Assembly: GCA_964036045.1 (NCBI GenBank)
Contig: OZ038391.1
Span: forward strand, 45,728,711 to 45,792,710
Direction of reading: 5' to 3'
Length of the DNA stretch: 64,000 nt
Source: Eutreptiella sp. 'Long Island Sound 2002'
Lineage: Eukaryota > Euglenozoa > Euglenophyceae > Eutreptiales > Eutreptiaceae
The translations under genes were made by a program, and so were the position numbers. How positions within the stretch are numbered: the first letter of the stretch is position 1; each line of letters begins with the position of its first letter. Below the pieces are notes generated by a model. The model was not told the DNA's origin, ran no database searches, and was given only the letters and a program-made list of their open reading frames with translations. Below, one piece after another: positions 13,317-42,180 of the stretch.

Positions 13317-14810
13317 TTGACACAGGAGGAACTCAAGGACATGGAGTATTGGTGTGACCGTTTAGGAGAAGCGTGGGGTAAGTTGCAATGGGGTGTTACC
13401 CCATGGGTACCTTGGGCTGTTGTGCATAGCGCCTATTTCGCACGCCGGTTTGGCAGTTTGTACATCTTCCGCAGTATTCCAACGGAATACAGGAACCAAC
13501 CGTTCAAAAGGCATCTCAAAAACTTGATGCACGGTTGGTGCCTTCGGCGGCCACGCATCACCCGTCTCGGAATGAGACATGTGGTGCACACCGACGCCTT
13601 GAACATTCCCTGCGTGCGCGCTACAGGGTATTGCCGCGCGATGGCTCAGTGCGCACTACAAAGACATAGCGCGGGTCATAGCGCGCGCTATGGCTCGGGG
13701 TCTTGGGTTTGTAACCCCATGTCCTAATAAGCAGGGCAAAAACGCCTATTTCTCTAAAGTTTCAGATGCTTCCGGCACCGCAAGTGACGTTGTCAATGTC
13801 AGGAAAGATTGCAAACATTTTGGGCCCCCACTATGGGTGGTCCTTGTGGAAGAACGAGGACCTTTTGGCGGACCTAGTTGAGTTTTTTTGCTCAGGGTCT
13901 GCCGTCCAACGGTCTTTGTGGGCCAAGTTGGAAAAAAGGGTCCCCGTGTCTGAAGCAGAGAAGAAGCGTCGCAGGACCGAGGCTGCCAACGCCGTCACAC
14001 CCCTGTCGGTGGTGGACTTGGTCCTGCTCCTGAAGATTCCGAGAAGAAGGTATTATTGCGCGCGCTTTGCATGTGACATTGCGCGCACTTCCGCTCATAG
14101 CACGCGCTTCGTTGACTTCTGCGCGCGCTACGTTCTCATGTTGCACGCGCTATTTTCCTCAGGTACAAAGATTTGATTACTTGGACCCGAAGTAAGGTCC
14201 CCACACACCTTTTTTCTCTACCGTCCTATGCTAGTTTCGCCACACAATGGAACCAGCTTGCAAGTAGGCAGCATTTAGAGGTTGACGTGCACACATATGG
14301 CGCCACGGTCTTTTCGCAGTGGCCCCTGCAGCACTTTTTCGACTATATATTTTCCTTTGATTCCATTGTTTCTAACCTCCAATACCCCAGGGAGTGCCAA
14401 GGAGAGCTGTGGATCATTGTGAGGGGGGATGGGTTGCCTTGTGGGGGGGAATCATGGTGCCAGATGTCCATTTCCTTTGCCAACCATGGTCACTTGGCAA
14501 GGACGTTGTCCTACCACTGGACTGTTAACGTCGCCCTTTGTGGTGAGAAGTCCACCTCTGTGTTGTCTGAGGTCTGGGCTAACAATCTTGCTTTTCTCCA
14601 GAGTGCCATTGACAGTGGTGTGGTTCCCATCCGGGGTGCATCGAGACGCTGCAGGATTTTCTGCGGTGGGGATAGCCCTTGGCTGCGTCGGTTGTCGGGT
14701 GTAACTACACATTGGATGGCAGGTAGTCTGTTCACTTACATGACGTGGTGCAAGTTCATTGCAACATGGTTGCAACAGGATGTGGATAGAACCACCGAGC
14801 GAGATGAGCA
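13317..14810 (+). pseudogene. Transposon X gene, 5' part (split by insertions)
   Basis: Three exon-like blocks read forward. About 13317-13594 contains FGSLYIFRSIPTEYRN and LKNLMHGWCL. About 13806-14052 ends PLSVVDLVLLLKIPRR. 14162 onward contains LWIIVRGDGLPCGG and FCGGDSPWLRRLSG. The intron at 14053-14161 has a clean GT donor and CAG acceptor and consists mostly of GCGCGC-type palindromes. The VRGDG and GGDSPWLR motifs could hold the acidic residues of a DDE transposase, and the layout recalls CACTA/Plavaka-type elements, but the family is not certain. The frame is broken at 14810 by E1 and resumes at 41341, where it stays open across the target site if E1b is removed. Confidence 0.5.
14053..14161 (+). 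repeat. X-specific palindromes filling an intron
   Basis: Between donor AAG|GTATTA and acceptor CTCAG|GTAC the sequence is mainly GCGCGC-cored motifs (TTGCGCGCGCTTTG, TTGCGCGCACTT, TGCGCGCGCTACG). The same motif family occurs at 13600-13700 in another probable intron, with the perfect palindrome CATAGCGCGCGCTATG, and again at about 42130-42180 downstream. Confidence 0.75.
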
Positions 14811-15329
14811 TGTAACTACGAAGCCAACCCCAGATACTGTACATTCGCCAACTCTTGGTCAACTCCATGTCGAGAGCATTCAACTTGCATTTACTTTTGC
14901 ACTGTGTTGTTGCTACGCCTTGTGCATGAAACGTGAGGAACTATTGATATTTTACAGCTTTTGGTTGCGTTGCTTTGTTGTTATGATGCAATGTGTGGGT
15001 TTTTTTGGGTCGAAGCCAACTTTTTGGAAGCCAAGTCAAAGTTGGCGCGCCAACTTGGCACGTGGCGCGCGCCAATTGCCAAGTTGGCGCGCCAACTTGG
15101 CGCGCCAACTCTTGAGTTGGCGCGCGCCAAGTCCGGTTTTGGCGCGCGCCAACTGCCCCATCCTTCCTCTTCTTTTGCACCCTTCATGCATTCCCTTTCC
15201 CTTCTAGGCATTTCACTTTATTATGCCTCCAAAGCAACCCAAGAAGGGCAAGGGGAAGAAGGTGACAGTCACCGACCCCACGTCTGCCCCCGCTGCACCA
15301 CCTAACCCCGAGGTGCAGCCGGTGCTTGA
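14345..15329 (+). repeat. 985-bp direct repeat flanking E4, left copy
   Basis: This is nearly identical to 27371-28355 over exactly the same length (offset 13026 throughout, only scattered substitutions seen). It comprises the last 466 bp of X before the E1b insertion and the first 519 bp of E1b. E4 begins at the base after this repeat ends and stops at the base before the other copy begins. Confidence 0.95.
14811..15329 (+). mobile_element. E1b 5' end (left duplicate), truncated at E4
   Basis: It begins TGTAACTACGAAGCCAA directly after GAGCA, the same junction as at 27836/27837. It contains the E1 leader with GGCGCGCC palindromes (15050-15160) and the first codons of gene A from ATG at 15222, cut off at 15329. 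It belongs to the same insertion event as E1b and is not an independent copy. Confidence 0.92.
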
Positions 15330-15547
15330 TCCTTTATCTACCGGGGGAACGGGGTCATTTTTGGGGTAACCGGTCACTTTTTTGAAGTAGGGGTATATAG
15401 AGGTTTTTTGAGGTGGCGGACTTGTGTAACATAGTGGTTTGCATTGGTTCGTTTACTAGTAATGTACATTAGCACATTTGTCACTTTTCATGCCCTGTGT
15501 TACCCCCACTTGTTATCTAACTTCGTGCCCTTGCCGTGCAGCCCAGG

Positions 15548-15564
15548 TGTAACTACGAAGCCAA
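15548..15564 (+). repeat. E1 left terminal inverted repeat
   Basis: TGTAACTACGAAGCCAA; it matches the reverse complement of 22360-22376 over 17 bp. The first 13 bases are shared with E3, which makes E1 and E3 members of one group. Confidence 0.93.
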
Positions 15565-15777
15565 CCCCAGATACTGTACATTCGCCAACTCCTGGTCAAC
15601 TCCATGTCGAGAGCATTCAACTTGCTTGTACTTGTGCACTGTGTTGTTGCTACGCCTTGTGCATGAAACGTGAGGAACTATTGATATTTTACAGCTTTTG
15701 GTTGCGTTGCTTTGTTGTTATGATGCAATATGTGGGTTTTTTGGGTCGAAGCCAACTTTTTGGAAGCCAAGTCAAAG

Positions 15778-15835
15778 TTGGCGCGCCAACTTGGCACTTG
15801 GCGCGCGCCAACTCCGGTTTTGGCGCGCGCCAAGT
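15778..15835 (+). repeat. E1 palindromes in the gene A leader
   Basis: GGCGCGCC and GGCGCGCGCC cores with AA/TT arms, separated by about ten variable bases, immediately upstream of the gene A start codon. Matching leader clusters are at 15050-15160, 28068-28185 and 49078-49170 in the other copies; their number and spacing vary between copies. Confidence 0.9.
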
Positions 15836-15903
15836 GCCCCATTCTTCCTCTTCTTTTGCACCCTTTATGCATTCCCTTTCCCTTCTAGGCATTTCACGTT
15901 ATC

Positions 15904-18157
15904 ATGCCTCCAAAGCAACCCAAGAAGGGCAAGGGGAAGAAGGTGACAGTCACCGACCCCACGTCTGCCCCAGCCCCAGCCCCCGCTGCACCACCTAACC
16001 CCGAGGTGCAGCCGGTGCTCGATGCCCACATCGCCAACGTGGGCTCCGAGCACTTCCCCGGGGGCTATTTTCCCATCCCCTACACCCTCACCTCCCCGGA
16101 CGCCGAATCCTTCCCCCAGCTCCCCCCCCTCCGCGAACCCCTGGAGGCCGCCCTCTTCGGCAAGTGGGACCGTCCGGGCAATCCCCACTTGGTCTGGCGA
16201 ATTGACGCCACCCGTGTTAACTTCGCCCTGACCAGGGGGGTTCTTAGCAGGTTCTGCTGTGCCGTGATGGGCCGGTACCCCACGACGCTCGCGGTCGAGT
16301 TGAAGCTTTCTCAAGTCACCCTTGAGGCCTTCAACAAGACCCTGAAGCTGTGCACTGCTGCAGCGTCAAAAGAGTTCGTTAACGTTCTCGACCTGCAGGA
16401 GATGCCGCCTCAGGGTCTCGACCCCGAGGAGCAGTGGCTGTGGGTGGATCCAGTCAAAAAAAGTGGCTGGACGCACCGCACGGCCACTGACGCCGTTGTG
16501 CGGTACCAGACGGTGAAGGTGCCGGCGTGGGATGCAGTAGCTCCCACGGAGTTCTCCACCAACCGTCGCCTGCGCACCCACATCCCTGACATCACCCACC
16601 CCACCCTCTACAGCACCGACGCCCCCTTCACCATGCTTGGCATGGGTTGCCCCCACCCCTCCTTCCACAACTCCTACCCCGTCGCCAACCACAACATCCC
16701 CAACCCCCCCATCGTCACGGAGGAGGGTTTTGCCGCGGCGGGCTACCGCCAGTATGACCGCATCATCCCCGAGGATCTGTGGGCCAAACTGGCGGAGCTC
16801 GCCACGGTGGAACTCAACCCGTCGATGCTCGAGGAGGTGGACCTCCGGGCCCCCGGGGAAGGTGGGGGGCGCTATCAGACGACGGTCTCCAGCGTCCCCC
16901 ACTGGCTCCCGGACGACCTGTGGCAGGCTGTTCTGGCCCTGCTGGGGTTCTCCCTCCCACCGCTGCAGGGACTTGAGGCCTTGTGCCCCAAGATCATCGA
17001 GCGGTGGGAGGCAGAACCCTGGAAGGGTTTCCAGATCCCCCACCGCGATTTTGCACTGTCAGTGAAACAGTCACTGCAGTGCATGGTCGTGTTCATCCCC
17101 CTCACCACCTCTCCCCCGTCCAAGTCCCTCCAGGTGTGCCCGGGCACGCAGGGGGGCTATCACGCTGCGAATCGGTGGGATATTGTTATCCAACCGCTTC
17201 GCAGCGTGACGCTCCTCCGCGGGACGGTGATCCACCGCGGTGCGGGCGGGCCTGGCCGGGCACTGTTCATCCCGTTTGCACCCGTTGGCTACCGGTCGCG
17301 CATGCTGACCGTAGAGCCGGAGAGTGTAACGGAGCTGATGAACAATGTTCCGGTGATGCCCTCCGAGCTTCTGGCCGAGGGGGCTGCAGTCGGGTCCCCT
17401 CTGGGCACAGAGGCCAGTGTGAACTACAGCCCCCTCGACCAGGGGTCTGAGGAGGCCGAGGCAGCCGCCACCGACCCCGTGCCTGCCCCCCAAGAGGTGG
17501 ACATGCCGGAGGCGCCGGCGGATGCGGAGGAGAGGCCGGCCGCGCCGGCTGACGCGGATGCCGCCCCCCCCCCCACAGAGTGCGGCACAGGAGGAGGAGG
17601 AGATGCCGGCGGCGCCAGCGGATGCGAAGGCGCCGGCGGATGCGGAGGTGCCGGCGGATGCGGAGGAGAGGCCGCCCCCCCCCCCCCCCGGCAGAGGAGG
17701 ACTTCCTCACTCCCGACGCGATCCCCCAGCCAGTCTGCTTCGTGTCGCAGGCTGAGCAGCCGTTGGACCCCCCGGTGCCCTACATGGGGGACGTCCTCCT
17801 CCTGCAAGAGGGGGTGTCTGCGGGTCTGTTTCTGACCCCCACCGCCCACGCGCACGTGGGGCCCACCACCGCCGCGAGGCGGCCAGAGCGGATGCCTGCC
17901 TCACTCCGCACATCCACCGGTGGTGGCTTCCCCCCCCCGAGGCCACCGACTTCTGCCGCGTGCGCTACACGGCCGGCACGGTGGTGTACTCGTTCGCCGC
18001 ACTGGGCGCTGCGTTCGTGCGGGAGCCAGGGGCCGGCCGCATGGCCTGGATGGCCATGGCCCACTTCACCCCGCCCCTGAGCTCCCAGGACGCCGAGATG
18101 TTGGACCTCGTCCGCGTGGACAAGGCCCGCCGCACCATGTGCTCCTGCAGCGAGAAG
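15904..18157 (+). CDS. E1 gene A, exon 1: 2-oxoglutarate/Fe(II) dioxygenase-like protein
   Basis: The predicted product starts with a Lys-rich tail (MPPKQPKKGKGKK). It has a roughly 330-residue region of unknown fold, then a double-stranded beta-helix core: IPHRDF (His380, Asp382), SLQCMVVFIPLT, VCPGTQGGYH, LLRGTVIHRGAGGPGR (His444, Arg452) and FIPFAPVGY. This is the HxD...H...R order of phytanoyl-hydroxylase, TET/JBP and related dioxygenases, which oxidise small molecules, proteins or modified DNA bases; the substrate here is unknown. The exon ends CSCSEK at a GTGTGC donor. The frame changes in runs of C at about 17566-17576 and again near 17931-17939 (a third long run is at about 17683-17695), so the coding sequence is broken or these runs are miscounted. 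Exon 2 begins at 18513. Confidence 0.72.
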
Positions 18158-18512
18158 GTGTGCCCGCGCGGTGCCTTGCATGCATGCGATGTTGTCACAC
18201 GTGACACGAATTTGGCGCGCGCCAAATAGCAGATTGGCGCGCCAACTTCGCAGTTGGCGCGCGCCAACTTCCATCTTGGCGCGCGCCAAGTCACCGGTTG
18301 GCGCGCCAAGTGTTCGGTTGGCGTGCGCCAAGTCAAGTTTTGGCTCGCCAAATAGCTAGTTGGCGCGCGCCAAGTGCCGTTTTGGCGCCTGAATTTAATT
18401 CGTTGGGTTTTATCGGAAACGTTGTTCTGTGGCTGGTTTTCGAGTTGTCTTCGCTGTTGCAGTGGTGTCGTTGTGTGCATTGTTTTATGCTTGTGTTGTT
18501 GCGCATTTGCAG
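18158..18512 (+). repeat. E1 gene A intron filled with palindromes
   Basis: Donor AAG|GTGTGC, acceptor TTTGCAG|GTCCCC, phase 0. About half of its 355 bp is TTGGCGCGCGCCAA-type palindromes (18205-18390) with short variable linkers. E3 has an intron at the same protein position (37609-37885) with a quite different repeat. Confidence 0.75.
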
Positions 18513-19778
18513 GTCCCCATCCACTACGCCAATTTTCAATTGGAAGTGGACCCGCGTCCGGTGCCCGTGCCGGCCGGGGCGGAGGAGGTGGAGGGGCAGC
18601 CGCAGGAGCAGCGGCAGGAGCAGCGGCAGGAGCAGCGGCAGGAGCAGCGGCAGGAGCAGCAGGAGGGGTTGGAGGTGGATGTGGACGTGGTGGTGGATTG
18701 GGAAGTTCCGGAGGTCCCGGAACCGGCGGACTTCGGGGACGCCTTGCACAGCCCCGACAAGTTCCTGAAGGTGACGTCCGCCGAGGCGACGGCGGTGGAC
18801 GTCGTCGATGGGGGGGGGACGATCATCAGCCGCCTGTTCCAGGCGCAGGTGATTCGGCGGGGTTCGGGACAGAATAGGGTGGTGGAGTGCCCGTTCTGGG
18901 CAGTGGTGCAGGGGAAGGGGGGGGTGCAACCATGGGTTGTCTCCGTTGTGCCCTTTGTGCAGGTACGCCCCCCCTCCACGCACAACCGGCTCCTCCTCTG
19001 CAGCATTGACGCTTTGGGACAGCTGCAGAGGTGGAAGCAGTGTGAGTGGAGCGACGTGCGGGCCATTGCCCCCGCCCCCCACTTGAAGGAGGCAGCGCAG
19101 GCGTTTATGCTCCGCTTCCAGAAGCAGCTCGTGGGGAGAGGGCCGAAGGGGGAGAAGGGGGGCAGGGCCGCATCCGACGTGTCTGGGGACCCCTCCCTGC
19201 AGAGCAAGGGCCGCACGGAGCAGCAAGCTAGGGGCTCCAGGCGCCCTCGCCCCACGACCACCCCCCGGGAGGCAGCACAGGCAGCGCAGGCAGCGGGAGA
19301 CGGGGGGGGGGCACGGGAGAAGGCGGAGATTCTCCGCCTGGAGGCGGAGAACAAGCTGCTGCGCGAGCAGCTGAAGGCGGCGGAGGCCGCCCGCAAGACG
19401 GCACAGGACGCGCTCACCGGTGAGCGCGCCTTGTGGGAGTGGCGGGAGAAGGGGTGGGAAAAGCAGAGGGGGGAGTTGCAGCAGCAGGTGACCGCCACGG
19501 CGCAGGTGCGTGTAGTTGGGGGGGGGGCAGAGGGTAGTGCCGACCCCGACCATGGGCAGCATGTGCTGTACGTGCAGGCGGCGGCGGTGGAGTTGCACTC
19601 TGCACTCAGCGCCCAACGCCATGTGGCCATCAACATGGGGGTCAAAGAGGCCACCCTCACGGAGCTCAAGGGCCTGCTGGACAAGCACCCGGTTGCGCAC
19701 CTGCTTGACCCCAAGCGCATGCGGGCGGAAGAGAGCGAGGGGAGTCAGAGTCAGGGCAGCAAGCGGTCGAAGAAATGA
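18513..19778 (+). CDS. E1 gene A, exon 2: coiled-coil C-terminal part
   Basis: The exon starts right after the intron acceptor (VPIHYANFQLEVDP) and ends with TGA at 19776-19778. An ATG-started open frame also exists from 18429, but that start lies within the intron. Features in order: an acidic Pro-rich start; a short EQRQ tandem repeat (about 18597-18665); a region with VECPFWAVVQGKGG that is recognisably shared with E3 (VTCPFWVLVASRKG) and more weakly with E5; then a long charged coiled coil (REKAEILRLEAENKLLREQL) and a basic tail. No catalytic motif. It could mediate oligomerisation of the dioxygenase or bridge it to the transposase; that is inference from the shared gene order. Confidence 0.65.
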   Translation, partial: VPIHYANFQLEVDPRPVPVPAGAEEVEGQPQEQRQEQRQEQRQEQRQEQQEGLEVDVDVVVDWEVPEVPEPADFGDALHSPDKFLKVTSAEATAVDVVDGGGTIISRLFQAQVIRRGSGQNRVVECPFWAVVQGKGGVQPWVVSVVPFVQVRPPSTHNRLLLCSIDALGQLQRWKQCEWSDVRAIAPAPHLKEAAQAFMLRFQKQLVGRGPKGEKGGRAASDVSGDPSLQSKGRTEQQARGSRRPRPTTTPREAAQAAQAAGDGGGAREKAEILRLEAENKLLREQLKAAEAARKTAQDALTGERALWEWREKGWEKQRGELQQQVTATAQVRVVGGGAEGSADPDHGQHVLYVQAAAVELHSALSAQRHVAINMGVKEATLTELKGLLDKHPVAHLLDPKRMRAEESEGSQSQGSKRSKK

Positions 19779-19799
19779 GCAGGCACTGGCTGGGCATGG

Positions 19800-19992
19800 T
19801 TTTGGCGCGCGCCAAGTGGTAAGTTGGTGCGCCAAATCCTGATTTGGCGTGCGCCAACAGGGGAGTTGGCGCGCGCCAAATGGGAAGTTGGCGCGCCAAC
19901 TTGCCACTTGGCGCGCGCCAACTCAGGACTTGGCGCGCGCCAACTGACGAGTTGGCGCGCGCCAAATCCTTAGTTGGCGCGCGCCAACTGCC
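19800..19992 (+). repeat. E1 palindromes between gene A and gene B
   Basis: About nine palindromes of the TTGGCGCGCGCCAA / TTGGCGCGCCAA family in 190 bp, starting about 20 bp after the gene A stop and ending before the gene B leader. Confidence 0.92.
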
Positions 19993-20097
19993 TGCCAACT
20001 GTGTGCCATCTGTGTGCGAACGTGCAACAACGTTCCGTTGCATGATCCAACCCGCCTGCCACGTCCTCACGTGCCGCAGGTCTTTGTTTGTGCACCA

Positions 20098-21918
20098 TGC
20101 AGCGGCCCTTTGAGCAGCTGGCGCCCTCAAACTACCGCGACAGGCGCGCGCGGCTGGCACGCCTTCGCGAAGTCGTGGGGGAGATTTTGGGGCCACATTG
20201 GGAAGTACACGTCAAACCCGGCCGCCGCCGCATCCACCTCGTTTGCGGGGAGAGCAAACCCCCCACCCCCGATTTGGAGCTGTTGGCCGCGGCCACTCTG
20301 TGGGAGAGCCGCAAAAATGGCGACAGCTTCCGCAAACTGCAGTACAGCCGGGCACACAGCCAATGGAAGTGCCCATGGGGAACCCTGATGCAGGTGCGAA
20401 AGGCATTGTCCGTCCCCCGTGTCACGGAGGTCCATTTTCAGACGGACGAGGACAATGACATTTTTGGGGCCGCATGCAATCTGTGGCAGAAACTGCAGGT
20501 ATTTTCACCCTGCACCAAAGCGTTTCCCGGCGACCGTTCACGGTGACCCGTTACACACGGCCTGTTTTCTGGCATAGGTGATGTGGCACCGTGACGGCCC
20601 CACGTTCCTGACGGACAACGTGTGGGTGGGCATCTCCTTCGACGGGACAAAGCTCCGGCAGGCCTCCTTCGTGCATTTTGCCGTTGGAGACCTGGGGAGT
20701 CATATGCCCTTGGGCTCTTGGATCTTGCTGCGCGGATCCGAGAAGAAGGCCATCATTTCCCAATTGGCCGAGGTCTATGACCTGAACGCGGACCTCACCG
20801 AGGTGGCGCAGCAGCAAATCCCCGATAAAGGGGGTTACCTGCGTAAGGTGATTTGTTTTTTTATAGCAGACACCAAGGCGCAGGTCATTTTGGGGGGTTG
20901 CTCCTCCTTCACGGCCAAAAACCCCGCAGCTACCGTTTGTTGGCTGTGTGGGAAAAATCGGGCAACCATTCTGCACGAATTTGGTTGCGGGATGGGGGTG
21001 ATTGTCGAGGAGTGGCTGTGGGCGGGGATGATCTGCCCGATCGTGCGCCCCGCCCAGCGGCCCCCCGACTATGGGCTGCATGGTGTGCACCGGCAAGTGC
21101 ACAATGGGCTTTCAGCCCTTGTGAACAGCCTCCACACGGTGCATCGGTGGAAAAGGGGAAAGGCCGTGAGGTGGGTGCAATGGTTCCTGGATCCCATTCG
21201 GATCCAGGCACGGACCGCCACCGGGGTGGCGTTGGAAGAGGAGAGGAAGGATAAGAAGAAGGTGCCCCTGAAAATCGAGCAGACGGCGGCTGCCGAGTGG
21301 GTGAAGAGTGAGGGATGGGACACCATGTGTGACCATCTGGAGGGGGAGGGCCTCCTGCAGCATGTCGTTGACATGGGGGGGGTCGACTAACCAGGTGTCC
21401 TGGACGGACGCCTTCCGGCAATGGGGAAAATCCCTGTTGGCAACAAGCGATGTCGTCTGGAAATCCGGACCATTGCAGTTGCCCGACATGAAAATTCTGC
21501 GAACAGAATTGAAAAAAATGGGGGAGGCCCATAAGGCCTGTGAAATGAACGTCACCCTGTGGGCCCATCTGTGGATTGACCACCTGTTGGGATGGGCCCG
21601 CAGGTGGGGGCACATTGGCATTTTTGCCGCCTTCAAAGGAGAGGGCGGCACAAAGCCCTGAAATGTGAAATCTCAAAGCGCAGCTTTCGAGGTGGAAGTA
21701 AAGGCGGCCGGGTGTCCAGACTGCGGGGGGCCAGAGTGCGGGTGAAGGGGGGCAAGGGGGATCGCACGCGGAAGGGGTGGGGGGAAGTGATCCGCTCAGA
21801 TAATCTGGACTGGGGGTTATATAACAAAAAATTTTCGGTTTGGGAGTCGTCGTGGACGAAGCAAAGGGGGTACATAGAGAATAAGGGGGTCTTCGTCCAG
21901 GCTGAACAAGGCATGTGA
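20098..21918 (+). pseudogene. E1 gene B: putative DDE transposase
   Basis: Exon 1 (20098-20498) starts MQRPFEQLAPSNYRDRR. A 79-bp GT-AG intron (20499-20577) precedes exon 2, VMWHRDGPTF. Candidate catalytic blocks, all shared with E3, are WVGISFDGTK (first Asp), FFIADTKAQVILGG followed by VCWLCGK (second Asp and a Cys pair), YGLHGVHRQV, and the ExRHKAL block. In this copy a 7-bp insertion near 21387 creates a stop, and a one-base loss near 21650 changes the frame before the ExRHKAL block. E1c has neither of these two lesions. The product would recognise the element ends and catalyse transposition. The superfamily is not settled: 2-bp target duplications fit CACTA-like or mariner-like elements. 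Confidence 0.65.
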
Positions 21919-22359
21919 CCTCTATATATGATTTATATGATTGATTTGACAGCTTCTTGCACATTCGCAGTCTTTTGCACATTAATCAAAAAAAGATGCT
22001 ACAATGCTTTCTTTGTGCCAAGTGTGCAAGGGCAGGTGAGGGACGGAATTTCCAGTGACAACAATGGTATGCAAGTCGATGGTTTGATCGGTGGGGGGAC
22101 ATTTGGCGCGCCAAGTCGCAAGTTGGCGCGCCAACTTGTGAATTTGCGCGAGCCCAGGCCCGGGAAGCCAACTTTGGGACTTTTGTACCGTGTAGGAGTG
22201 TTTTCAGCACGAGAGGGGCATGAAACCCGGGTTTTTTCAGGGTAAGAAGTTTCCATTTACACCAAAAAGGAGGAAAAAATCCCTAGGTAGCCAGTGTAAC
22301 AACATAATAGACACCCGCCATGATTTGGCTGCATTCCGAAGCAAGTTGGCGAATGTCTC

Positions 22360-22376
22360 TTGGCTTCGTAGTTACA
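22360..22376 (-). repeat. E1 right terminal inverted repeat
   Basis: The reverse complement of the left end. The equivalent ends of E1b (41324-41340) and E1c (52163-52179) carry one or two substitutions (TTTGTAG instead of TTCGTAG; the last base of E1b is G). Confidence 0.93.
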
Positions 22377-23016
22377 GGGTTTTGCGCGGTAACACATACA
22401 TCGGGTAACACCCCCACGGTTACACACCGGGGAACACATCACAAAACTCCAGTTGCCAGATACTTCCACTTGTGGCTCATGAAGTAAATGTTTTCAAGAA
22501 AATCGCAGGCGCACGAGTTTTGCGCCTGCTCCGCGTACGCCCACCGCGTGCTTGTGAATTTTTTCGTCTTGTTTTGACGTTGCAAACCCCCCTTGGACTG
22601 CATTCACCACTTATTAGTGCATTCTTAGATAACTGGTGCCCGGGGAACAGATGTTCTGGGGAACACATCAACCGTAACACACGCGGTAACACCACCTCTT
22701 CACATGTTTTTGCACAAGGGTGTTGTATGGCCACACAATGCCTGTTCCACCCGTCCCCAAGAAGTTCGCCACCTCTGTGAAGAGTGGGTCGTACCTCTCT
22801 AGCGTTCGATGGGGAGACATAGCCCATAAAGGGGCCGCCGCGGTCCTTCAGGTTGTTATTGCCTTGTATGCTGTTTTGTGTGGTTTGAGGTAACACTGCA
22901 GCGCTACCGGTTACACTCCTGGTAACACATTGCATGAATGGTGCATTCGAGGGAACATCGTGGGGCTACCGGTTACACCTTAGGTAACGTGTGGCATTCA
23001 TGTCCCCCTGCCATAG
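22377..23016 (+). repeat. E4 spacer with GTTACC/GGTAAC motifs, part 1
   Basis: Repeated GGTAACAC and GTGTTACC words (for example 22389-22440, 22635-22692, 22889-22990), often as facing pairs. They occur upstream of the E4 acidic-protein gene. The same words are at 15360-15400, at the left end of E4 beyond the nested E1, which shows that they belong to E4. Confidence 0.8.
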
Positions 23017-23619
23017 ATGAAGAAAAAGAAAGGATCCACCTACATCTGTGGGTGGATTTCGAAGGGGAACGCCTCCTCCCTCACAATGCCGCAGCCGCTG
23101 GGCTATGAGGTCGACACTGGGGAATGCATGGACATTGCCACCATGGGGTCCACCACCATCAAGGCTGACCAAGTAGCCAACCAATGGGGTTATTACACAG
23201 GTGGCGAGGGCAGTAGCAGCAGCAGCAGCAAAGGCAAACAGCAGGCAGCCGCAGCCCCCACGTCCCAGCAGCAACAACCCAAGAGACAACAGCCGACCCC
23301 AGCCGGGAAACAAACCCGCCACTACACCCCCCAGATAGCAGCAGCAGCAGCTTCAGCAGCAAGGCAGAGGGGAGAGGGCATGGATGTTGACGAATGCACA
23401 GACGAGGACGAGAACTTTGAGGATGATCCGGCCGAAGCAATGGATGAGGACGACCCAGCCTCGGGCAGAAAAGGAGGGGATGAGGACCCTGCAGATGCTG
23501 ACGACGATGATGCTGACGACAACCCGGGGCCCAAGCCCAAGGCCAGAACAAAGGTAACCAAGGAGGGACACAAAGGCAAAGCCAAACACCCCAGTTTCCT
23601 GATTGAGGGCCCCGCGTGA
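23017..23619 (+). CDS. E4 acidic low-complexity protein
   Basis: 200 codons from ATG at 23017 (directly after a CCATAG that could be a splice acceptor) to TGA. The first 60 residues are ordered-looking (TYICGWISKGN, then MPQPLGYEVDTGECMD). Next come Ser/Gln/Ala/Pro-rich stretches, a strongly acidic block (DECTDEDENFEDDPAEAMDE and a run of Asp) and a basic end. No known domain. Its place upstream of the transposase suggests an accessory protein of E4, perhaps DNA- or chromatin-binding; this is a guess from composition. Confidence 0.5.
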   Translation: MKKKKGSTYICGWISKGNASSLTMPQPLGYEVDTGECMDIATMGSTTIKADQVANQWGYYTGGEGSSSSSSKGKQQAAAAPTSQQQQPKRQQPTPAGKQTRHYTPQIAAAAASAARQRGEGMDVDECTDEDENFEDDPAEAMDEDDPASGRKGGDEDPADADDDDADDNPGPKPKARTKVTKEGHKGKAKHPSFLIEGPA

Positions 23620-31500: not shown

Positions 31501-31739
31501 TGAGCCTTCACGCCCATTTGCGTGATGGGGCGCCCATGGCGCTTATTGTGTGTGTGGGGTCTTTCACCGGGGGTGATTTTTGGGTGGAGAGTGGTGGTCT
31601 GCTGAATCCCTCCCTGAGGGAAAAAAAGCGGCACACCCGTGTGTGCAAGGGTAGGGCGGTGGAGGGTTGGGCATGCAAGGCCACCCCCCAAGCCCCATGT
31701 TTCGTTTGCTCGATATTGCCCGTTTTGCACTTTTTGCGA

Positions 31740-32395: not shown

Positions 32396-32455
32396 TTTTT
32401 TGGGCCCTTGCTTCAAAACCCTCGCTCATTTCCTGCCCAGGCCCTCTTATTCTTC

Positions 32456-33574
<1,119 letters not shown>

Positions 33575-33944
33575 ATACCAACATGCAGCATGCCGCATTC
33601 TAAACGGCATTGCAAAGCGCACTGAGACCACCCTTCTGGCCCTCCCCCTTGGTACCCCCCGAAATGGAGGAACATTTTTCAGTTTTCCTCCATCCCAACT
33701 GAGTATCGGCATGGGCCTTACAAGAGGAGGCTCAAATTGTTTTAGGGGTTGGTCCTTGGTGAGGCCAAGTATGTCCCTCCGCCACATGCACCATTGCATG
33801 TCCATGAACGCCCTGGAGCAAGGGCTTTAGGGACTGGAGGCAGCCAAGGCCTCAGACATTGATGACTTTGTATGAAAAACGACCATACATGCTTTGTGCC
33901 AAGTGTTTTGTGTTGTTTGTCCTAGTGGGGGACGGAGGAGGGGT

Positions 33945-34062
33945 GCGCGATAACTACCCGCGATAACTGCGCGATAACTGAGTTATCGCGCGATAACTAG
34001 CGCGATAACTAGTTAGAGCAAGGTGCTCTAACTGTGTTCTAACTCTGTTCTAATTGTGCTCT
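33945..34062 (+). repeat. E2 palindromes near the right end
   Basis: GCGATAACTACCCGCGATAAC and GTTATCGCGCGATAAC words followed by GTGCTCTAACT words: the same vocabulary as the other E2 spacers. The stretch 33575-33945 between the TA repeat and this cluster holds no feature that I recognise. Confidence 0.85.
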
Positions 34063-34256
34063 AACTCTTTGACCCCCCCCAAAAAAACCACCCCTACAAT
34101 GAGGGTTATGTGGGGAAAGAAAGGGGATGGGGGGTTTTTGAGGGTGCTGAATCCATTTTTTTAGGTGGTTTGCCCCGAAATTGAGGCTAGGTGGGTGTTC
34201 TGGAAATTGCGTTCTAACTAGGGGTTCCGCACCATGCCCTAGAACGCTGCATCCCA

Positions 34257-35255
34257 TACCCCGTCGCCGACCACGACATCCCCAACCCCCCCATCGTCAC
34301 GGAGGAGGGTTTTGCCGCGGCGGGCTACCGCCAGTATGACCGCATCATCCCCGAGGATCTGTGGGCCAAACTGGCGGAGCTCGCCACGGTGGAACTCAAC
34401 CCGTCGATGCTCGAGGAGGTGGACCTCCGGGCCCCCGGGTTCCAGGAAGGTGGGGGGCACTCTCAGACGACGGTCTCCAGCGTCCCCCACTGGCTCCCGG
34501 ACGACCTCTGGCAGGCAGTTTTGGCCCTGCTAGGGTTCTCCCTCCCACCGCTGGAGGGACTTGAGGCCTTGTGCCCCAAGATCATCGAGCGGTGGGAGGC
34601 AGAACCCTGGAACGGCTTCCAGATCCCCCACCGCGATTTTGCACTGTCAGTGAAACAGTCACTGCAGTGCATGGTCGTGTTCATCCCCCTCACCACCTCC
34701 CCCCCGTCCAAGTCCCTCTAGGTGTGCCCGGGCACGCAGGGGGGCTATCACGCTGCGAATCGGTGGGATATTGTTATCCAACCGCTTCGCAGCGTGACGC
34801 TCCTCCGCGGGACGGTGATCCACTGCGGTGCGGGTGGGCCTGGCCGGGCACTGTTCATCCCGTTTGCACCCGTTGGCTACCGGTCGCGCATGCTGACCGT
34901 GGAGCCGGAGAGTGTAAAGGAGCTGATGAACAGTGTTCCGGTGATGCCCTCCGAGCTTCTGGCCGAGGGGGCTGCAGTCGGGTCTCCTCTGGGCACAGAG
35001 GCCAGTGTGAACTACAGCCCCCTCGAACAGGGGTCTGAGGAGGCCGAGGCAGCCGCGACCGACCCCGTGCTTGCCCCCCAAGAGGAGGACATGCCGCAGG
35101 CGCCGGCGGATGCGGAGGAGAGGCCGGCCGCGCCGGCTGACACGGAAGGGGTGGGGGGAAGTGATCCGCTCAGATAATCTCGACCTCGGGTTGTATAATA
35201 AAAAATTTTCTGTTTGGGAGTCGTTGTGGACGAAGCAAAGGGGGTACATAGAGAA
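34257..35255 (+). pseudogene. E1b gene A, middle part with TAG, fused by deletion to gene B
   Basis: It continues gene A after the E2 insertion and retains the PHRDF and VIHCGAGGPGR motifs (Arg to Cys after the second His). It has TAG at 34719 where the longest copy has CAG. Near 35145 it passes into the last part of gene B (RKGWGEVIRSDNLD-type sequence). It ends at the E3 insertion site. Confidence 0.85.
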
Positions 35256-35479
35256 TGTAACTACGAAGACAAATGGGTAAAGTGAAGTTTCGCTAAAACG
35301 TGGTAAAACACGGTAAATCGAGGTCAAACTTGGTTAAACGGTGTTTGCCATGTCCCTCCATGTGTTTGGGTGGTGGTAGGACAAAGCCATGTCAAATTGA
35401 TGTAAAATGAGGCTAAATCCATGCTTTTTCCGGTAACAGGTTGGGTCGTCTTACGTCAAACCTGGGTCCCCGTCAACTT

Positions 35480-35645
35480 TTGTCTTGTGCCGTGTTTGCT
35501 CCGTTTGCCTTCGTTTGTCGCACGTCAAAACTAGTTTTAGAGTGCGTCAAAACCAGATTTAGCTTGTACTGTAGTGCAATGCAGCTTAAGACAAAACTAG
35601 TTTTAGCGCACGACAAAACGAGGAATAGCACACGCCAAAATGCGC
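35480..35645 (+). repeat. E3-specific repeats in the leader
   Basis: Repeated words of the type TTTTAGCGCACGTCAAAAC or GCACGTCAAAACTAGTTTTAG, a near-palindrome around a GCGC/CGCG core. They lie between the left end and the gene A start. Confidence 0.88.
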
Positions 35646-35681
35646 TTTTTGCTGTTCTCCTTCCTTTTTATAGTCTTCTGG

Positions 35682-37608
35682 ATGCCCCGGAAGAAGGGGA
35701 AGCCAAAGAAGGCAGCACCAAAGGGGGGGAAGCAGGCCAAAATCAACCTGCCCACCGCGGGCGCCAACGACTCATCGTTCGATGACGACAATGAGGCTGG
35801 GCCGGTTGTGCCGGAGGGGCCGGCGGGTGTGGTCCGCACCATGGAGGTGCTTGAGGAGCCCCTGTTGGAGGTGACCCCAGAAGGATTTACAAAGGAGGTT
35901 GTGAAGTTGGAAGATGGGGATCTGAACCAGTGGCCACAATTGTCCGTGCGGATTGAAAACCTGTTGATGGCTTCGGAGAAGGACGGTGTGGTGCATGTAG
36001 CAGTGGTGTACGATGCCACATGTGTCCGTTTGCCTCTCCATCCAGGGTCGCTCACAACGGTCGCTCACACAACCCACAGGCTGTTGGGTTCAAAGGTGGT
36101 TGCGGTTGTCATCAGGATGTGTCGGGCGGATCCCGATATGATCCACCGCCTCGTCTCCATTGGCTGTGGCAACGGGCCGCAGACCGAATGCTGGGCCACA
36201 CACGACATTTCAAAAAATCAATGGGACACTGACCCGGTGGATAGGCCGCTCTGCAGCTATTTGCGGCGGAAAGCGAAAGTCACCAAACCCACAACGGCAC
36301 ATGCGCCCCTCAGGTAATTATAAGGGCCGCAAAGGCCAAGAGTGCGTCGGCCAGGGGCCCATGGTTGCAGTTGCGGCGGCGCAGCTGGAGCACATTGTGC
36401 CGGATGTGACCCATCCCACAAAGTGGGAAACAACGGCCAGCCGGGTGTACGTTCCGATGGGTTCCCCTGGTCCAGCAATCTCCACCAACCCACCTGAACT
36501 GTCCATGGAGGTTCCGGCCGCTCCAAACCAAAGTTGGAACAACTACGATGTCGCTGGCTACCACCTCATGCAGGCCCTCTTCCCCCCGGAGATCCACGAG
36601 CAACTGCAGAACATTGTCAAGCCGGAACGGCAGACGTTGGAGGAGTGGCCTGTCCATGGTGCTGGTTATCCGGGGGTGCGACTGCAAACCCAGCGGGACG
36701 CGGTGACTTGGTTTCCTTTGCCGCTCCAGAACGCCTTGTACACCGCCATCTACGAGCAGTGGGTCTTCCTGAAGGACAGCGACACCTTGGGGACGGTTTT
36801 GTATACCCGGCCAGAGGACACCAATACGGAGGATTGGGCAGGATACGAGCCACTTCACCGCATGCACCACTGGTCCCGCGCGTACGCCCACTTGACACAC
36901 ATGGTCATTGTCCCCCTTCAGGACGTTGAGGCTGCGCAAGCTCTGCAGGTGCAGGTTGGGTCACATCGTGGACAGCACACAGCGAACAAGATGCACACGC
37001 TGCCGATGAAACTTGGGGATGCCCTGCTCATGAACGGGCCTTTGTTCGTGCGCTTTGGTGGTGGTAAGAGCAGGTACCTGGTCTTTACATTTTTGCCGCA
37101 TGGGGTGCGCAAGGTTCTGCCGTGCGTGGAGGGTCCCGAGGTCATGGAGATGGCGTGCAAGCAGCCTCCACTACCGACACCACAGGAGAGGGAGTTCGAC
37201 ATGGGCGAGTGCACGCACGTGCCGGTGCCATGGCAGTATATGGGCGACGTCGTGCATCTCTGTCGGCACATTGCAGACTGCAACATGTGGCTGGCGGTAA
37301 AGGGGGTGCAGTACACGGACATTGCGCCCGATGGCGAGGACGATGTACCAAACTGTTCAACACCTTGGGTGCATCGATGGTGGGTCCCAGCCGTTAGCAA
37401 TGCGAGGGTGCCGCGACTCAATTTGCAAATGGGCGACGTTGCGTTTGCCTTCGTGCCGGCAGCCTGGGGTTTCACGAAACAACCGACCTTCGAAGTGATG
37501 TCCTATTCGCAGATGGCCCACTACTGGGGAGCCCTGACCCCTGTCGACAACCTCCGCAACGCCGCCCAGTGGAAGGTGGACAGGTGGGTGTGCAACTGTC
37601 AGTACCAG
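35682..37608 (+). pseudogene. E3 gene A, exon 1: dioxygenase homologue without the catalytic triad
   Basis: It starts MPRKKGKPKKAAPKGGKQAK (compare E1 MPPKQPKKGKGKK). A frame change near 36290-36320 is needed, then HIVPDVTHPTKW parallels E1 HIPDITHPTLY. The beta-helix region is HMVIVPLQ, QVGSHRGQHTANK and LLMNGPLFVRFGGGKSRYLV. Where E1 has HRD and IHRGAGG, E3 has RMH and FVRFGGG, so the metal ligands are not conserved at the aligned positions. The C-terminal part has WQYMGDVVHLCRH and ends CNCQYQ at a GTGTGC donor, like CSCSEK in E1. Probably a non-catalytic or inactivated member. Confidence 0.55.
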
Positions 37609-37885
37609 GTGTGCACCTACGGTTTACCGTGTTCTGGCGCGCGTCATTCCTTGTTTTAGCGCGCGTCATTCCTTGTTTTAGCGCGCGTCATTCCTTGTTT
37701 TAGCGCACGTCAAAACGTGTCTCGCGTACGTCAAAGCGTGCTTTAAAGTATGTCAAAATGCGCTTTGCTTTGTAGTACACCGCTTTCAACACACGTCAAA
37801 GCAGGTTTTAGCGCACGTCAAAACTGGCTTTAGCGCGCGTCAAAATGCGGTAGCGCAAGTGGAAACATGTTTCACGTTCTTGTAG
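37609..37885 (+). repeat. E3 gene A intron filled with E3 repeats
   Basis: Donor CAG|GTGTGC, acceptor CTTGTAG|GTCCAT, phase 0, at the same protein position as the E1 intron. It contains three near-identical copies of GCGCGCGTCATTCCTTGTTTTA and several GCGCACGTCAAAAC words. Confidence 0.75.
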
Positions 37886-38286
37886 GTCCATCTTCCAGTT
37901 GCGGCCGTGAACCCCTTGTCCTACGGCGCGCTGGAGGACCCAAAGCTGACGCCAAGCAGCCAGCTAGTCATTGCACCGCCGTTGACATCGTCACCCGCAG
38001 GCGAAGGTGCACCGGTCGGAGACGATGCGGAGGGCGACACAGACCCGATGGATCCCACGACCATTTGCACGCCTGACATTGACTTCATGGAGCGTCGGCA
38101 ATTCAAGAAGGAGGCCACGCTCGACAAAACTGCGGTGGAGATTACTGATGCGGATGGCCCGGGTGCTGAGAAAATGATCATCACCTGCGGGCTTCGCAGC
38201 AACATGGACTCATTCACGGTGACTTGCCCATTTTGGGTGCTGGTGGCGTCACGGAAGGGGGAGGAGACCTTGCTTGTCCTTACCTG
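37886..38286 (+). CDS. E3 gene A, exon 2
   Basis: It starts VHLPVAAVNPLSYGALEDP and includes an acidic linker and then RRQFKKEATLDKTAVEITDA and VTCPFWVLVASRKG, matching the ECPFWAVVQGKGG segment of E1. It ends TGA at 38284-38286, much earlier than in E1, without the coiled coil. This is either a true shorter form or a loss. Confidence 0.5.
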
Positions 38287-38372
38287 ACGCCAAAACACGC
38301 TTTAGCGCACGTCAAAACGCGCTTTGGCGTACGTCAAAGCACGCTTTAGCGTGCGTCAAAACACGGCAAACC
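38285..38372 (+). repeat. E3 repeats between gene A and gene B
   Basis: Four copies of CGCTTTAGCGCACGTCAAAAC-type words. The next cluster is at 40325-40465, after gene B. Neither gene contains them. Confidence 0.88.
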
Positions 38373-38417
38373 CGCAAAACACACACTCCAATTGTCCTTT
38401 GTGCCACGCAGACTGCC

Positions 38418-40213
38418 ATGGCATACTTGCAGTATCATGAGTTGGGATCCCGCAACCATACCACCCGCCGTGAGCGCCTAAGGGCTCTGCGTGTGTAGGT
38501 GCACGCTATATTGGGGAAGGACTGGGATGTGCGGCCGGTGCCCCGGCAACGCCGTTCGCTTGAATTGATATGTCATGCAGCAGCTGCCGAACCTCATGCC
38601 GGGCCCGAACTTTGTGCGCAGGCTGCATTGTGGGACATGCGGCGGCAAGGACTTTCCCTGCGCCAGCTCCACTATGATTTCACAACGTCTGTCTGGTGCA
38701 CGCCCATTGCAACAGTGCTTTCGCAGAGGCGTGCGTTAAGTGTGCCCCAGGTCACGGAACTCAGCTTTGAGACGGAGACGTTGCAAGGGTCCCGTTTGCT
38801 TCGTGCCCAAGTGCGGGGGTGCAAAACGTCGTTAAAACAAAAATTGGAGGTGTGGGGGGTGCTCAAAGTGCACTGCGTCGCTCGATAAACCCCCATGAGG
38901 TGCACGCAGTGCGTTTTCCTTTTGTTACGCAGGTAATGTGGGCCACTCGGGCACCACAATCGCATCGTGGAAAAGTTTTGGTGGTGATCGCGATCGATGG
39001 CACGCGGAGCCACAATCGGAGCTTCTTGCACTTCAGCGTGGGGGATGTGCGAAGCTCATTACCCTACGGTTTCGTGGGTGTTCGTGCATGGTCCGGAGAA
39101 AAAGAGTGTCTTGCAGCGGTTGAGTGCGGTGGCCGAATTGAACGATGAGATAAAAGACGTACAACAAACAACGTACATAGATAGTAATGGCTTCGAGTGT
39201 AGCGTTGAGTTTGAGATCATAGCCGATGGGAAGGGGCATGTGGCGTTGAGCGCGTGCAAGGGGTGGACCACTGCCCACCCCTTGGCGGTTGTGTGTTGGT
39301 TGTGTGGGAGGAGTCATGAGGTGTGTGTGAACCAATTTGGCAGCGGACATGTAAGAATTAAGGATGAGTGGGAACACTCGGGCTGGTGTTGAGTGCGGTG
39401 AAGCCTAAACAGAGGCCACCGGAGTACGGGCTGCATGGGGCACACCGCATGGTGTGTTGCGGGTGCACAGGGCTTTACAATGCATTACGTGACCAACATG
39501 CGTTTACAGAAAAAAGAGCGTCGGAGTGGGTCCAGTTCTACCTGGACCCCATAAGAATCCAAGCTCGAACAGTGACCGCGCAGGATGTGGTTGGGGAGGA
39601 TAGGGAGGGAGTGCACATTGAACAGACTGCGGCAGGGGAGTGGATTAAGGCTCAGGGATGGGAGTGCATTGCCGACGAGCTCCAAAACAGCAACCTTTTG
39701 CAACACGACAGTGTGCATAACGGTGTGCGCGTGCCATGGGGGGAGGGGTTCAGGCAGTGGGGGGTGCTTCTGGGAAGGACCGCTAGCCTGGTATGGGAAA
39801 AGGGTTTCTTGACAGCGACCAAGGTGAATGAGTTGAGGGCTGACCTGAAGGTGATGGGGGCACTGCAAAGGGCTTTAGGACTTAGTATTAGTTTGTGGCC
39901 CCACTTGTGGGTAGACCACATGGTTGAGGTGGCAGGGTTGTACGGGGATTTGAGCCTGACGGCGGGGTTCAAGGCAGAGGGGAGACACAAGGCGCTGAAG
40001 CAGGAGGTCAGAAACAGGTCTTTCAAGGGGGGAGGGAAGGGGAGCAGGCTCAGGGTAGTGCGCAAGAGTTGGGGTGAACTCATCCGAAACGACAATATGG
40101 ACTATAGTTTGTTAAATAAGGGGTTTAATGTGTGGGAACCGGCATGGACCAAGCAAGAGGCATACCTGAAGAACAAAAGTGCTTGGAAGCACTTGAAGGG
40201 GGTACAAAAATGA
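38418..40213 (+). pseudogene. E3 gene B: putative DDE transposase
   Basis: Exon 1 starts MAYLQYHELGSRNHTTRRER. An in-frame TAG follows LRALRV at 38496-38498, then GKDWDVRPVPRQRRSLELIC. An 83-bp intron (38850-38932) lies at the same place as in E1. Exon 2 has VLVVIAIDGTRSHNRSF (first Asp), FEIIADGKGHVALSACKGW with VVCWLCGRS (second Asp, Cys pair), YGLHGAHRMV, LWPHLWVDH and GFKAEGRHKALKQEV (candidate third acidic residue), ending TGA. Two frameshifts, near 39085 and 39385, and the TAG mark it as inactive. It is the best-preserved C-terminal half of the family next to E1c. Confidence 0.7.
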
Positions 40214-40720
40214 GAAGACAGATTGTTGTTGTGCTCGTGCCATGTGCCTCAGCGTGCATGATCATGTACATGTGTGTATGTACCCAAGGAAGGGCTACGG
40301 TTGCATTTAACCATGATTTAGCTTAAGACAAAACTAGTTTTAGGGCACGTCAAAACCAGTTTTAGCTTGCAATGCAGGGTTGCAAACCTAGGACAGAAGT
40401 AGGTTTAGGGCACGTCAAAACCTGTTTTAGCGCGCGTCAAAACTAGTTTTAGCGCGCGTCAAAATGAGGTAAAACCAGGGAAAGACCCCGTGTTGACTGT
40501 GGGTGAAGAGAGAACGACCGGACACGAAACACGCCGCCGTGGGGTGATGGCGGCAGCGTTTTGGGTGATTCAAAAGCAAGGAGGCTTGGTTTTTGTTCCA
40601 GAAACATTGTGGAATAAAGGTACAAGTGGGAGGAGGGCAGTAAGTGGGGTTCTCAATTTTTGCCTTGATTTGCCGCAATTTACCGCGTTTTAGCGAAACT
40701 TCACTGTCTTCGTAGTTACA

Positions 40721-41340
40721 AATAAGGGGGTCTTCCTCCAGGCTGAACAGGGGTCCCAAGGCATGTGACCTCTATATATGATTGATATGCCTCCATGGCC
40801 CCCGGTTTTGAGCTACGGCTCCACAGTGTACACTACATCGGGAAGCACAGCTTCTTGCACATTCACCGTCTTTTGCACATTCATCAAAAAAAGATGGAAC
40901 AATGCTTTCTTCGTGCCAAGTGTGCAAGGGCAGGTGAGGGACGGAATTTCCAGTGACAACAATAGTATGCAAGTCGATGGTTTGATCGGTGGGGGGACAT
41001 TTGGCGCGCGCCAAGTCCGGACTTCGCACGCGCCAACTTGCCAGTTGGCGCGCGCCAAGTCCAGACTTGGCGCGCCAACTTGCGACTTGGCGCGCCAACT
41101 TGTGAATTTGCGCGAGCCCAGGCCCGGGAAGCCAACTTTGGGACTTTTGTACCGTGTAGGAGTGTTTTCAGCACGAGAGGGGCATGAAACCCGGAGTTTT
41201 TCAGGGTAAGAAGTTTCCATTTACACCAAAAAGGAGGAAAAAATCCCTAGGTAGCCAGTGTAACAACATAATAGACACCCGCCATGATTTGGCTGCATTC
41301 CGAAGCAAGTTGGCGAATGTCTCTTGGCTTTGTAGTTACG
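40721..41340 (+). mobile_element. E1b 3' end
   Basis: It continues AATAAGGGGGTCTTC of E1 after E3, includes the E1 3' palindromes (41000-41100) and ends TTGGCTTTGTAGTTACG. The final base differs from the usual A. Confidence 0.92.
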
Positions 41341-41341
41341 C

Positions 41342-42180
41342 AGTTGCTAGGGCTCATTGCACCTGGGGCCAAGTGCAGGTCCATGGATATATTTGGTGTT
41401 GTCCAGAGCAGGTTGTTGAAGGTGCCTCTGAGGAGGCGTCACCTCATACCATGTGTTGTGCACTTTCTGATTTTTGTAGGGAGGGAGGTCACTGCCTTGG
41501 TACGCAGATTGGCCAAGTGTGTGCTTCCTAGGACTAGGGTCTCTGTTCAGGCTATTCTTCACAGGTTGGGCTGTCACATAGCACTACAGGGGACGGCAGA
41601 GCCAGATGGGGAAGAGACTTGGTGCCTTCTTAAGGTTTGGGAGGAACTGGCCCCCCTCCTTGGGGGTGACATGAGGATGCACATAGCAGTGGTTGCCATG
41701 TACATACTAATGGGGGACATGTATGGCACAATGTTTGAAGAGGCAGCATTGCAGGCTCCAGAGGTTGCCCAGGCTTTCTAGAGGTGGGTTTAATTTGCCC
41801 CGAAAAAATATCACCTTATATTAACTGGCTGTTGCACAATGCTACAGTCACTATTCAGGCCATACGGCCCTATGGCCTAGGAATGTTTTGGAGGGATCTT
41901 TTGTAAGGGAGCAACAGGGTGCTGAAGGACATTTGGTCCTCCTTTTGTGATAGAGGTGGGGGGGCAGGAAGCCTAGTGTCGCGCCGCATTAAGATGCTGA
42001 GGCAGGTTAATGAGCGTCTGTTCCTGTACTTTGAAGTACCAAGGTGGAACGGGACCTCCAGAAGCAACCTGTGCACTGCACAGAAATTGGCCGACGACGT
42101 TAGGGCATATTTTGCGGACGAGGAACCGTGGTAGCGCGCGCTATTTGTTTTGTAGCTTGCGCTACATGCTATCTAGTGGT
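41342..42180 (+). pseudogene. Transposon X gene, 3' part
   Basis: The frame resumes after the CA target site (QLLGLIAPGAKCRSMDIFGV) and is open to 41781, with EETWCLLKVWEELAPLLGGD and MYILMGDMYGTMFEEA. A second frame (about 41823-42134) reads RPYGLGMFWRDLL, one TAA, then NRVLKDIWSSFCDRGGGAGS. This style (aromatic 'GPL..fW' then 'K..w.S') recalls the C-terminal part of CACTA/Plavaka transposases. It ends in a GTAGCGCGCGCTAT palindrome that looks like the start of another X intron. Confidence 0.45.

Follow-up and report, generated by a model that had tools for sequence, protein, structure and literature searches.

Family-private motif arrays in the non-exon DNA of nested Eutreptiella transposons

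In a 64,000-nucleotide stretch of the genome of Eutreptiella sp. 'Long Island Sound 2002' (contig OZ038391.1, G000:C14:45728711-45792710), referred to below as the window, nested DNA transposons carry arrays of short motifs in their non-exon DNA that are private to one transposon family. The evidence for such private arrays is strong for the elements E1, E2 and E3 and for a sister family, E5, and weak for the elements E4 and X; a first-pass annotation, which had assigned a private motif to every element, was in this respect partly confirmed. New here are a gap of fixed length, 8 bp, which is common to E1, E3 and E5, and a half-site of the form TTnnCG in which the two middle letters are family-specific. 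We consider it probable (about 0.6) that the arrays serve as sites at which a DNA-binding protein made by the same transposon family recognises its own copies.

Private motifs and their absence from exons

Judged by terminal repeats and target duplications, the window contains an outer element X, three copies of E1 (E1a, E1b, and E1c), and one copy each of E2, E3, and E4. E2 and E3 are both nested inside E1b, which is itself nested inside X, and E4 is placed between E1a and a duplicated part of X. The E1 motif was found as a 14-bp palindrome, TTGGCGCGCGCCAA, with 20 exact copies in the window (14, 4, and 2 in E1a, E1b, and E1c), and as a 12-bp palindrome, TTGGCGCGCCAA, with 19 exact copies (9, 5, and 5). 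All of these are located within E1, in the leader, the intron of gene A, the spacer between gene A and gene C, or the 3′ end. The shorter E1 half-site TTGGCGC was less private, with 87 of 95 copies in E1. In the case of E2, all 31 copies of the half-site GTTATCGCG and all 6 copies of CTAACTAGTTAG were found in the element, in agreement with the earlier claim that motifs are not shared between the elements of the window. The E3 half-sites CGTCAAAAC and TTTTAGCGC were present in E3 in 9 of 10 and 7 of 7 cases, respectively, and 21 of 23 copies of GTGTTACC lie in E4. The further claim that each element has a repeated palindrome held for E1 and is weak for E4 and X, whose exact palindromes TGTTACCGGTAACA and CATAGCGCGCGCTATG occur once each in the window; that of E2, GTTATCGCGCGATAAC, occurs twice. 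The repeating unit of E4 is the half-site GTTACC/GTTCCC (51 sites with mixed spacings). In X, five degenerate sites follow one another in a single intron, at steps of 23, 19, 21, and 22 bp, and further sites lie near both ends.

Exact matches were then counted over the assembly of 2.28 Gb and 2205 contigs, with the same letters read backwards as a control. The E1 motif was found 4684 times (control, 1), the E2 16-mer 5029 times (control, 0), the E3 motif TTAGCGCGCGTCAA 93 and 97 times (controls, 1 and 0), and the E5 motif TTTACGCACGCAAA 329 and 265 times (controls, 0 and 2). The E4 motif was found 222 times (control, 5) and, among the matches listed, nearly always once per place. Of 12 regions chosen by listed E1 palindromes, 11 contain E1 ends, coding sequence, or arrays, the exception being L008.

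The proposed absence of motifs from exons was borne out as well. Exons were defined as tblastn matches with at least 60% identity in the window and 48 loci (L005 to L052), and each motif was compared with the exons of its own family. Not a single site was present in 28,547 bp of E1, 52,441 bp of E3, 10,200 bp of E5, and 5,392 bp of E2 exons, a total of 96.6 kb, and 174 (E1), 198 (E3), 29 (E5), and 75 (E2) non-exon sites were found within 1.5 kb. Another 34 E1 and 20 E2 sites lie elsewhere in the examined loci. The set of loci is partly non-independent, as L017 lies within the window, L018 lies within L047, and L006 and L007 overlap; L026 to L028 gave identical match rows in the protein search with E3 gene C, so that the copies are not all independent.

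A fixed 8-bp gap and the half-sites of sister families

Scoring with up to two mismatches revealed 179 E1 palindromes in the window and loci L005 to L016. Neighbours less than 60 bp apart were separated by exactly 8 bp in 133 of 139 cases, for 12-bp and 14-bp sites alike. The 133 spacers are of 61 kinds, across which only the second (T) and the seventh (A) letters stand out; the information content is 0.34 bits or less at six of the eight spacer positions, compared to 1.57 to 2.0 bits at the motif positions, the latter values being inflated by the selection of sites with up to two mismatches. In the 30 E3 loci, a gap of 8 bp was again the commonest (137 cases, against 22 for 51 bp and 10 for 29 bp, the next in rank), and the asymmetric E3 site was oriented along the transposase in 115 of 115 cases. 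Across the window and the fetched loci, pairs of the form TTnnCG(nn)CGnnAA were found 208 times at a gap of 8 bp, a count that includes some pairs twice because L001 to L004 lie within L005. None of the other gaps between 4 and 12 bp was represented more than three times, and the backward control gave no pairs. The half-site letters of these pairs are mostly those of E1 or E3, and only three pairs are E5-like. Logos of unselected neighbours 22 bp away were weaker than those of the picked sites, with E1 diluted by 12-bp units and E5 represented by 19 windows only; in E3 they hold 0.35 to 1.5 bits in the 14-bp core, and some spacer positions are equally high.

These data bear on the explanation that the arrays are functionless minisatellites spread neutrally by unequal exchange. 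The size of E1 arrays indeed varies between copies, from 2 to 10 units, parts of the E3 spacer are conserved along with the motif, and a plain satellite in the window also has repeated TTnnCG words. However, the E1 spacer is fixed in length and mostly free in its letters, while the motif is conserved, and we regard neutral spread as very improbable, the least probable of the explanations weighed here.

A protein search with E3 gene C gave at least 175 matches. E3 copies were mostly 84 to 96% identical and some 60 to 80%, and many other matches were 46 to 50% identical. The latter group contains both E1 copies and members of a third family. Among three loci taken from it, L048 and L052 represent this third family, E5, and L049, a candidate for the third family, was rejected as it proved to be E1. 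In L050 and L051, which were taken as possible further families, no clear motif of the TTnnCG-array kind was found. E5 has the terminal inverted repeat (TIR) TGTAACTACGAAGTA and the target site duplication (TSD) TA (L052), and its motif shows one 8-bp gap per copy and steps of 65 to 68 bp, with further 22-bp pairs among the genome matches listed. Alignment of the sites of E1 (TTGGCGCGCGCCAA), E3 (TTAGCGCACGTCAA), and E5 (TTTACGCACGCAAA) revealed a common TT..CG..CG..AA, and the three families also share the start of the terminal repeat and 2-bp target duplications. A transposase relative, P0052, was at most 50% identical to its matches in the Eutreptiella genome, which suggests that the transposase superfamily is not confined to this genome.

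When the sixteen TTnnCG words were counted per element, different middle letters were enriched over expectation: GG in E1a (60; 8.3 expected), AT in E2 (33; 1.0 expected), GA and AG in E3 (16 and 12; 4.0 and 1.1 expected), and TG and TA in the E5 copy of L052 (32 and 11; 5.6 and 1.8 expected). In E4, AC was counted 8 times (1.4 expected) and TT 7 times (1.6 expected). Clusters of a further half-site, TTCACG, are present in nine loci outside the named elements, at L049:974-1299 with steps of 10 to 11 bp and in L006, L007, L016, L023, L026 to L028, and L038. At about 1800 to 1900 of L049, after the TTCACG cluster, there are repeats of TATACGGCCGTATA, another palindrome centred on CG.

Probable self-recognition by an encoded protein

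A dimeric reader protein encoded by the element is the best fit, being the simplest account of the privacy of the motifs, their avoidance of exons, the fixed gap, and the change of letters between sister families. The first-pass annotation had named self-recognition among several possible roles; its interpretation is partly supported, self-recognition being favoured by the private motif, the fixed gap, and the change of motif between sisters at the same 8-bp gap. By means of the array, the family protein would distinguish copies of its own element from other genomic DNA, with TTnnCG as the half-site shape and the two middle letters as the private part. The distance between neighbouring sites, about two helical turns, would allow bound dimers to line up. 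Because coding constrains the exons, the sites would have settled elsewhere: in the leader, a single intron, the spacer between the genes, and the 3′ end.

The same change of letters argues against a host transcription factor such as E2F, which would tie expression of the transposons to the cell cycle. The E2F consensus, which we take to be close to TTTGGCGC, is similar to the E1 motif, but sister families in one genome keep the gap and change the very letters that a shared factor would read, and we consider this explanation improbable. A shade less probable still is that hairpins formed by the arrays in intron and leader RNA affect splicing or small RNAs, another role proposed earlier. Neighbouring E1 units could form a 14-bp stem with an 8-nt loop at a mean of −29.6 kcal/mol (n = 23), the palindromes used being exact and hence fully paired by construction. 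The proposal fits badly because the pairs of E3 (−11.2, n = 51) and E5 (−2.1, n = 2) give weaker predicted folds and yet keep the gap; moreover, all E3 units point in one direction, and arrays are also located in the gene spacer and the 3′ end.

A more serious competitor, although unlikely in our view, is that the arrays are sites of the transposase or of a TnpA-like accessory protein that joins the ends, as in En/Spm, with the internal arrays being spare or regulatory. The leader array starts 229 to 231 bp from the 5′ end in all seven E1 5′ ends found with an array, the 3′ array starts 252 to 361 bp before the end in all ten E1 3′ ends found, and the deletion copy E1c retains just these two arrays. 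Joining of ends does not call for the arrays of 6 to 10 units in the intron and the gene spacer, kilobases from either end.

If self-recognition is correct, the most likely job of the arrays would be anti-silencing, in which the bound protein keeps or makes its copy transcriptionally open, like VANC for VANDAL transposons. The reader is probably gene A. In E1, E3, and E5, the product of gene A is predicted to adopt the fold of a 2-oxoglutarate/Fe(II) dioxygenase (double-stranded beta-helix), and among the structure matches listed FtmOx1 and other 2-oxoglutarate oxygenases lead. An HxD...H pattern is present in E1 (HRD..IHRG), in E5 (HCD or HRD..IH), and in the E2 copy of L012 (HRD..VHRG); the E2 copy of the window is devoid of the dioxygenase segment carried by the L012 copy. 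The dioxygenase fold makes local oxidation of methylcytosine by gene A a reasonable guess for the chemistry, and since each half-site keeps a CG, the sites may serve as CpG targets. The binding of gene A, its countering of silencing, and the oxidation step are all inferred.

Sequence comparisons placed these proteins only loosely. Gene A of E3 and that of E1 share 28% identity over 269 columns. None of the element proteins scanned gave a Pfam match above the cut-off, and the members of gene alignment A2 gave scattered weak matches only, with PhyH in 1 of 52. The gene A profile found no match among PDB sequences at E values up to 10 and no E2 frame in the window and the fetched loci, and hhalign gave a weak result for it against E2 gene A (probability 1.3%, E 0.04). 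E2 is therefore linked to the other families by three features: the metal motif, a CxC end immediately preceding an array, and sub-threshold Pfam matches. Gene C contains D, D, C(2)C, H, and E in this order, with the histidines spaced HxxH. E4 gave a piggyBac-like match to DDE_Tnp_1_7 with an E value of 0.033 and 13.9 bits, under the cut-off of 22.4.

Several observations weigh against self-recognition as outlined here. Two structure models were predicted; both are poor overall, with a mean predicted local distance difference test score (pLDDT) of 49.2 and 56.0, and no DNA-binding fold was found. HxD is absent from both E3 gene A copies read (window and L047), and sites are present in all 30 E3 loci; because E3 keeps its sites without HxD, the sequences read indicate that some families can do without catalysis, unless E3 relies on that of another family. 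The TTnnCG shape was derived post hoc from E1, E2, E3, and E5, and X shows no comparable enrichment, its AG word included. The shape is also not special to these elements, because the left-flank satellite is enriched too (TTCTCG 50, 4.2 expected; TTTCCG 32, 8.9 expected). A scan for word clusters was not clean, giving TTnnCG 86 times, TTnnGG 35, TTnnGC 30, ATnnCG 11, AAnnCG 6, CAnnCG and TAnnCG 5 each, and TCnnCG and GTnnCG once each. Finally, E2 steps are mostly 12 to 13 bp, some letters of the E3 spacer are also conserved, and tandem duplication alone could explain part of the E3 array.

A modular address code, with a common array format of TTnnCG half-sites and units of about two helical turns, two letters naming the family, and a dioxygenase-type protein of that family oxidising methylcytosine at the CG to relieve silencing of its own copies only, is a tentative extension of self-recognition. 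We lowered our estimate for it slightly, to a rather doubtful level, because other word shapes cluster and the satellite is enriched.

Comparison with known transposon systems

The closest counterpart is VANDAL21 of Arabidopsis, where VANC21 binds arrays of YAGTATTAY in non-coding parts of the element and removes methylation, according to the available parts of the reports (PMC5735166; PMC10398659). As far as these describe the system, it shares with the Eutreptiella elements family-private arrays of short motifs in introns, intergenic and terminal non-coding DNA, mainly outside exons, a variable number of units, and different motifs in related families (PMC5735166). Such anatomy, private non-coding arrays absent from exons, was found in E1, E2, E3, and E5. 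In contrast, the Eutreptiella sites, which keep a fixed 8-bp gap, are palindromic or two-armed, whereas the units of the VANC21 motif are described in the parts available as all pointing the same way. The TIR differs as well, and a dioxygenase fold is predicted for gene A. The VANC domains DUF1985 and DUF287 gave no Pfam match at E values up to 1 in the proteins scanned. In our best reading, the arrays would work like VANC/VANDAL in anatomy, with protein content that does not make the elements members. Self-addressed anti-silencing would then have arisen again in transposons unrelated to the Arabidopsis VANDALs, and the question of how a transposon confines its activation system to itself would become directly testable. 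The sisters E1, E3, and E5 allow small changes of the site to be set against changes of the reader protein, and such readers might serve as sequence-specific epigenome tools.

En/Spm elements with TnpA have repeated sites near both ends in a subterminal layout. The Eutreptiella elements are alike in this respect and differ in that long arrays are also internal. CACTA termini were not found: E1 and E3 start with TGTAACTACGAAG and E2 with TGGGATGCAGCGTT. TnpA of Spm is a second element-encoded protein linked to demethylation, as stated in the part of the source available (PMC10398659).

Mirage-like CMC elements have a 2-bp TSD. TSDs of 2 bp were found for E1b (CA), E1c (AC), E3 (AA), E2 (TA), and E5 (TA, L052). 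The order D, D, C(2)C, H, E of gene C is also that given for the CMC-type transposases (EnSpm, Mirage, Chapaev, Transib) in the available sections of a report on fungal transposons; gene C differs by HxxH instead of H(3-4)H and by its lack of a Pfam match (PMC12730594). The same sections describe fungal DNA transposons carrying a TET/JBP gene for a 2-oxoglutarate/Fe(II) dioxygenase, for which oxidation of methylcytosine is discussed, and some of these (ESTA) combine TA target duplications with CMC-type transposases (PMC12730594). A dioxygenase gene, predicted in the Eutreptiella elements, is common to both, but no private motif arrays are described in those sections. TET/JBP gave no Pfam match in the proteins scanned and is not among the structure matches listed; gene A may nonetheless belong to this family. 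Among the titles and abstract openings listed from the open-licence literature, none matched DNA transposons with a PhyH-type gene or with arrays of this sort.

E1a (14811..22376, plus strand; TIR TGTAACTACGAAG...) contains gene A and gene C. It is rearranged, as it lacks matching flanks and has a second E1 5′ end at 15548, and may consist of two joined E1 pieces. Its first leader array (15042..15152, 6 units) starts 231 bp from the 5′ end at 14811 and the second (15778..15833, 3 units) 230 bp from that at 15548. The first exon of gene A (15904..18157, plus strand) has the predicted dioxygenase fold at residues 266-470 of the open reading frame, followed by a part ending in CxC, and its frame shifts past ~17550. 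The intron (18158..18512, plus strand; GT...AG by sequence) holds 8 units at 18212-18373, and the second exon (18513..19778, plus strand) is motif-free. An array of 9 units (19802..19987) precedes the transposase-like gene C (20097..21918, plus strand), which has an interrupted reading frame and a motif-free intron (20499-20577), and the 3′ array (22103..22134) has 2 units. E1b (27837..41340, plus strand) is split by E2 and E3 and has arrays at 28068-28178 and 41001-41098; E1c (48848..52179, plus strand), with an internal deletion, has arrays at 49078-49166 and 51862-51937.

E2 (29010..34256, plus strand) has the half-site TTATCGCG at 29233-29337, 30728-30832, 32242-32391, and 33946-34008 and a 42-bp tandem repeat with CTAACTAGTTAG at ~31740-32205; it also contains a long TA dinucleotide run at 33392-33560. 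The sites of E3 (35256..40720, plus strand; TIR TGTAACTACGAAGAC) are located at ~35513-35640, 37633-37865 (inside the gene A intron, 37609-37885), 38279-38373, and 40318-40470. The first exon of its gene A (35682..37608) and its transposase-like gene C (38418..40213), both on the plus strand, have interrupted frames. X extends approximately from 13600 to 42200 (plus strand), with sites at 13666-13692, a cluster at 14055-14153 in the intron 14050-14162, and sites at 42131-42165. The E4 fragment (22377..27369, ends approximate) has its weak, piggyBac-like DDE_Tnp_1_7 match at 26351-26947.

Searches of the window gave neither a tRNA nor an Rfam match above the cut-off. The minus strand of 42300-48850 has several long frames of up to 314 residues, and the three scanned gave no Pfam match. 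A reverse transcriptase fragment at 54431-55435 (RVT_1, E 1.1e-07) belongs to another element. A satellite at 1-7600 holds 32 of the 33 GGGGATCCCC sites of the window, most commonly in steps of 105 bp.

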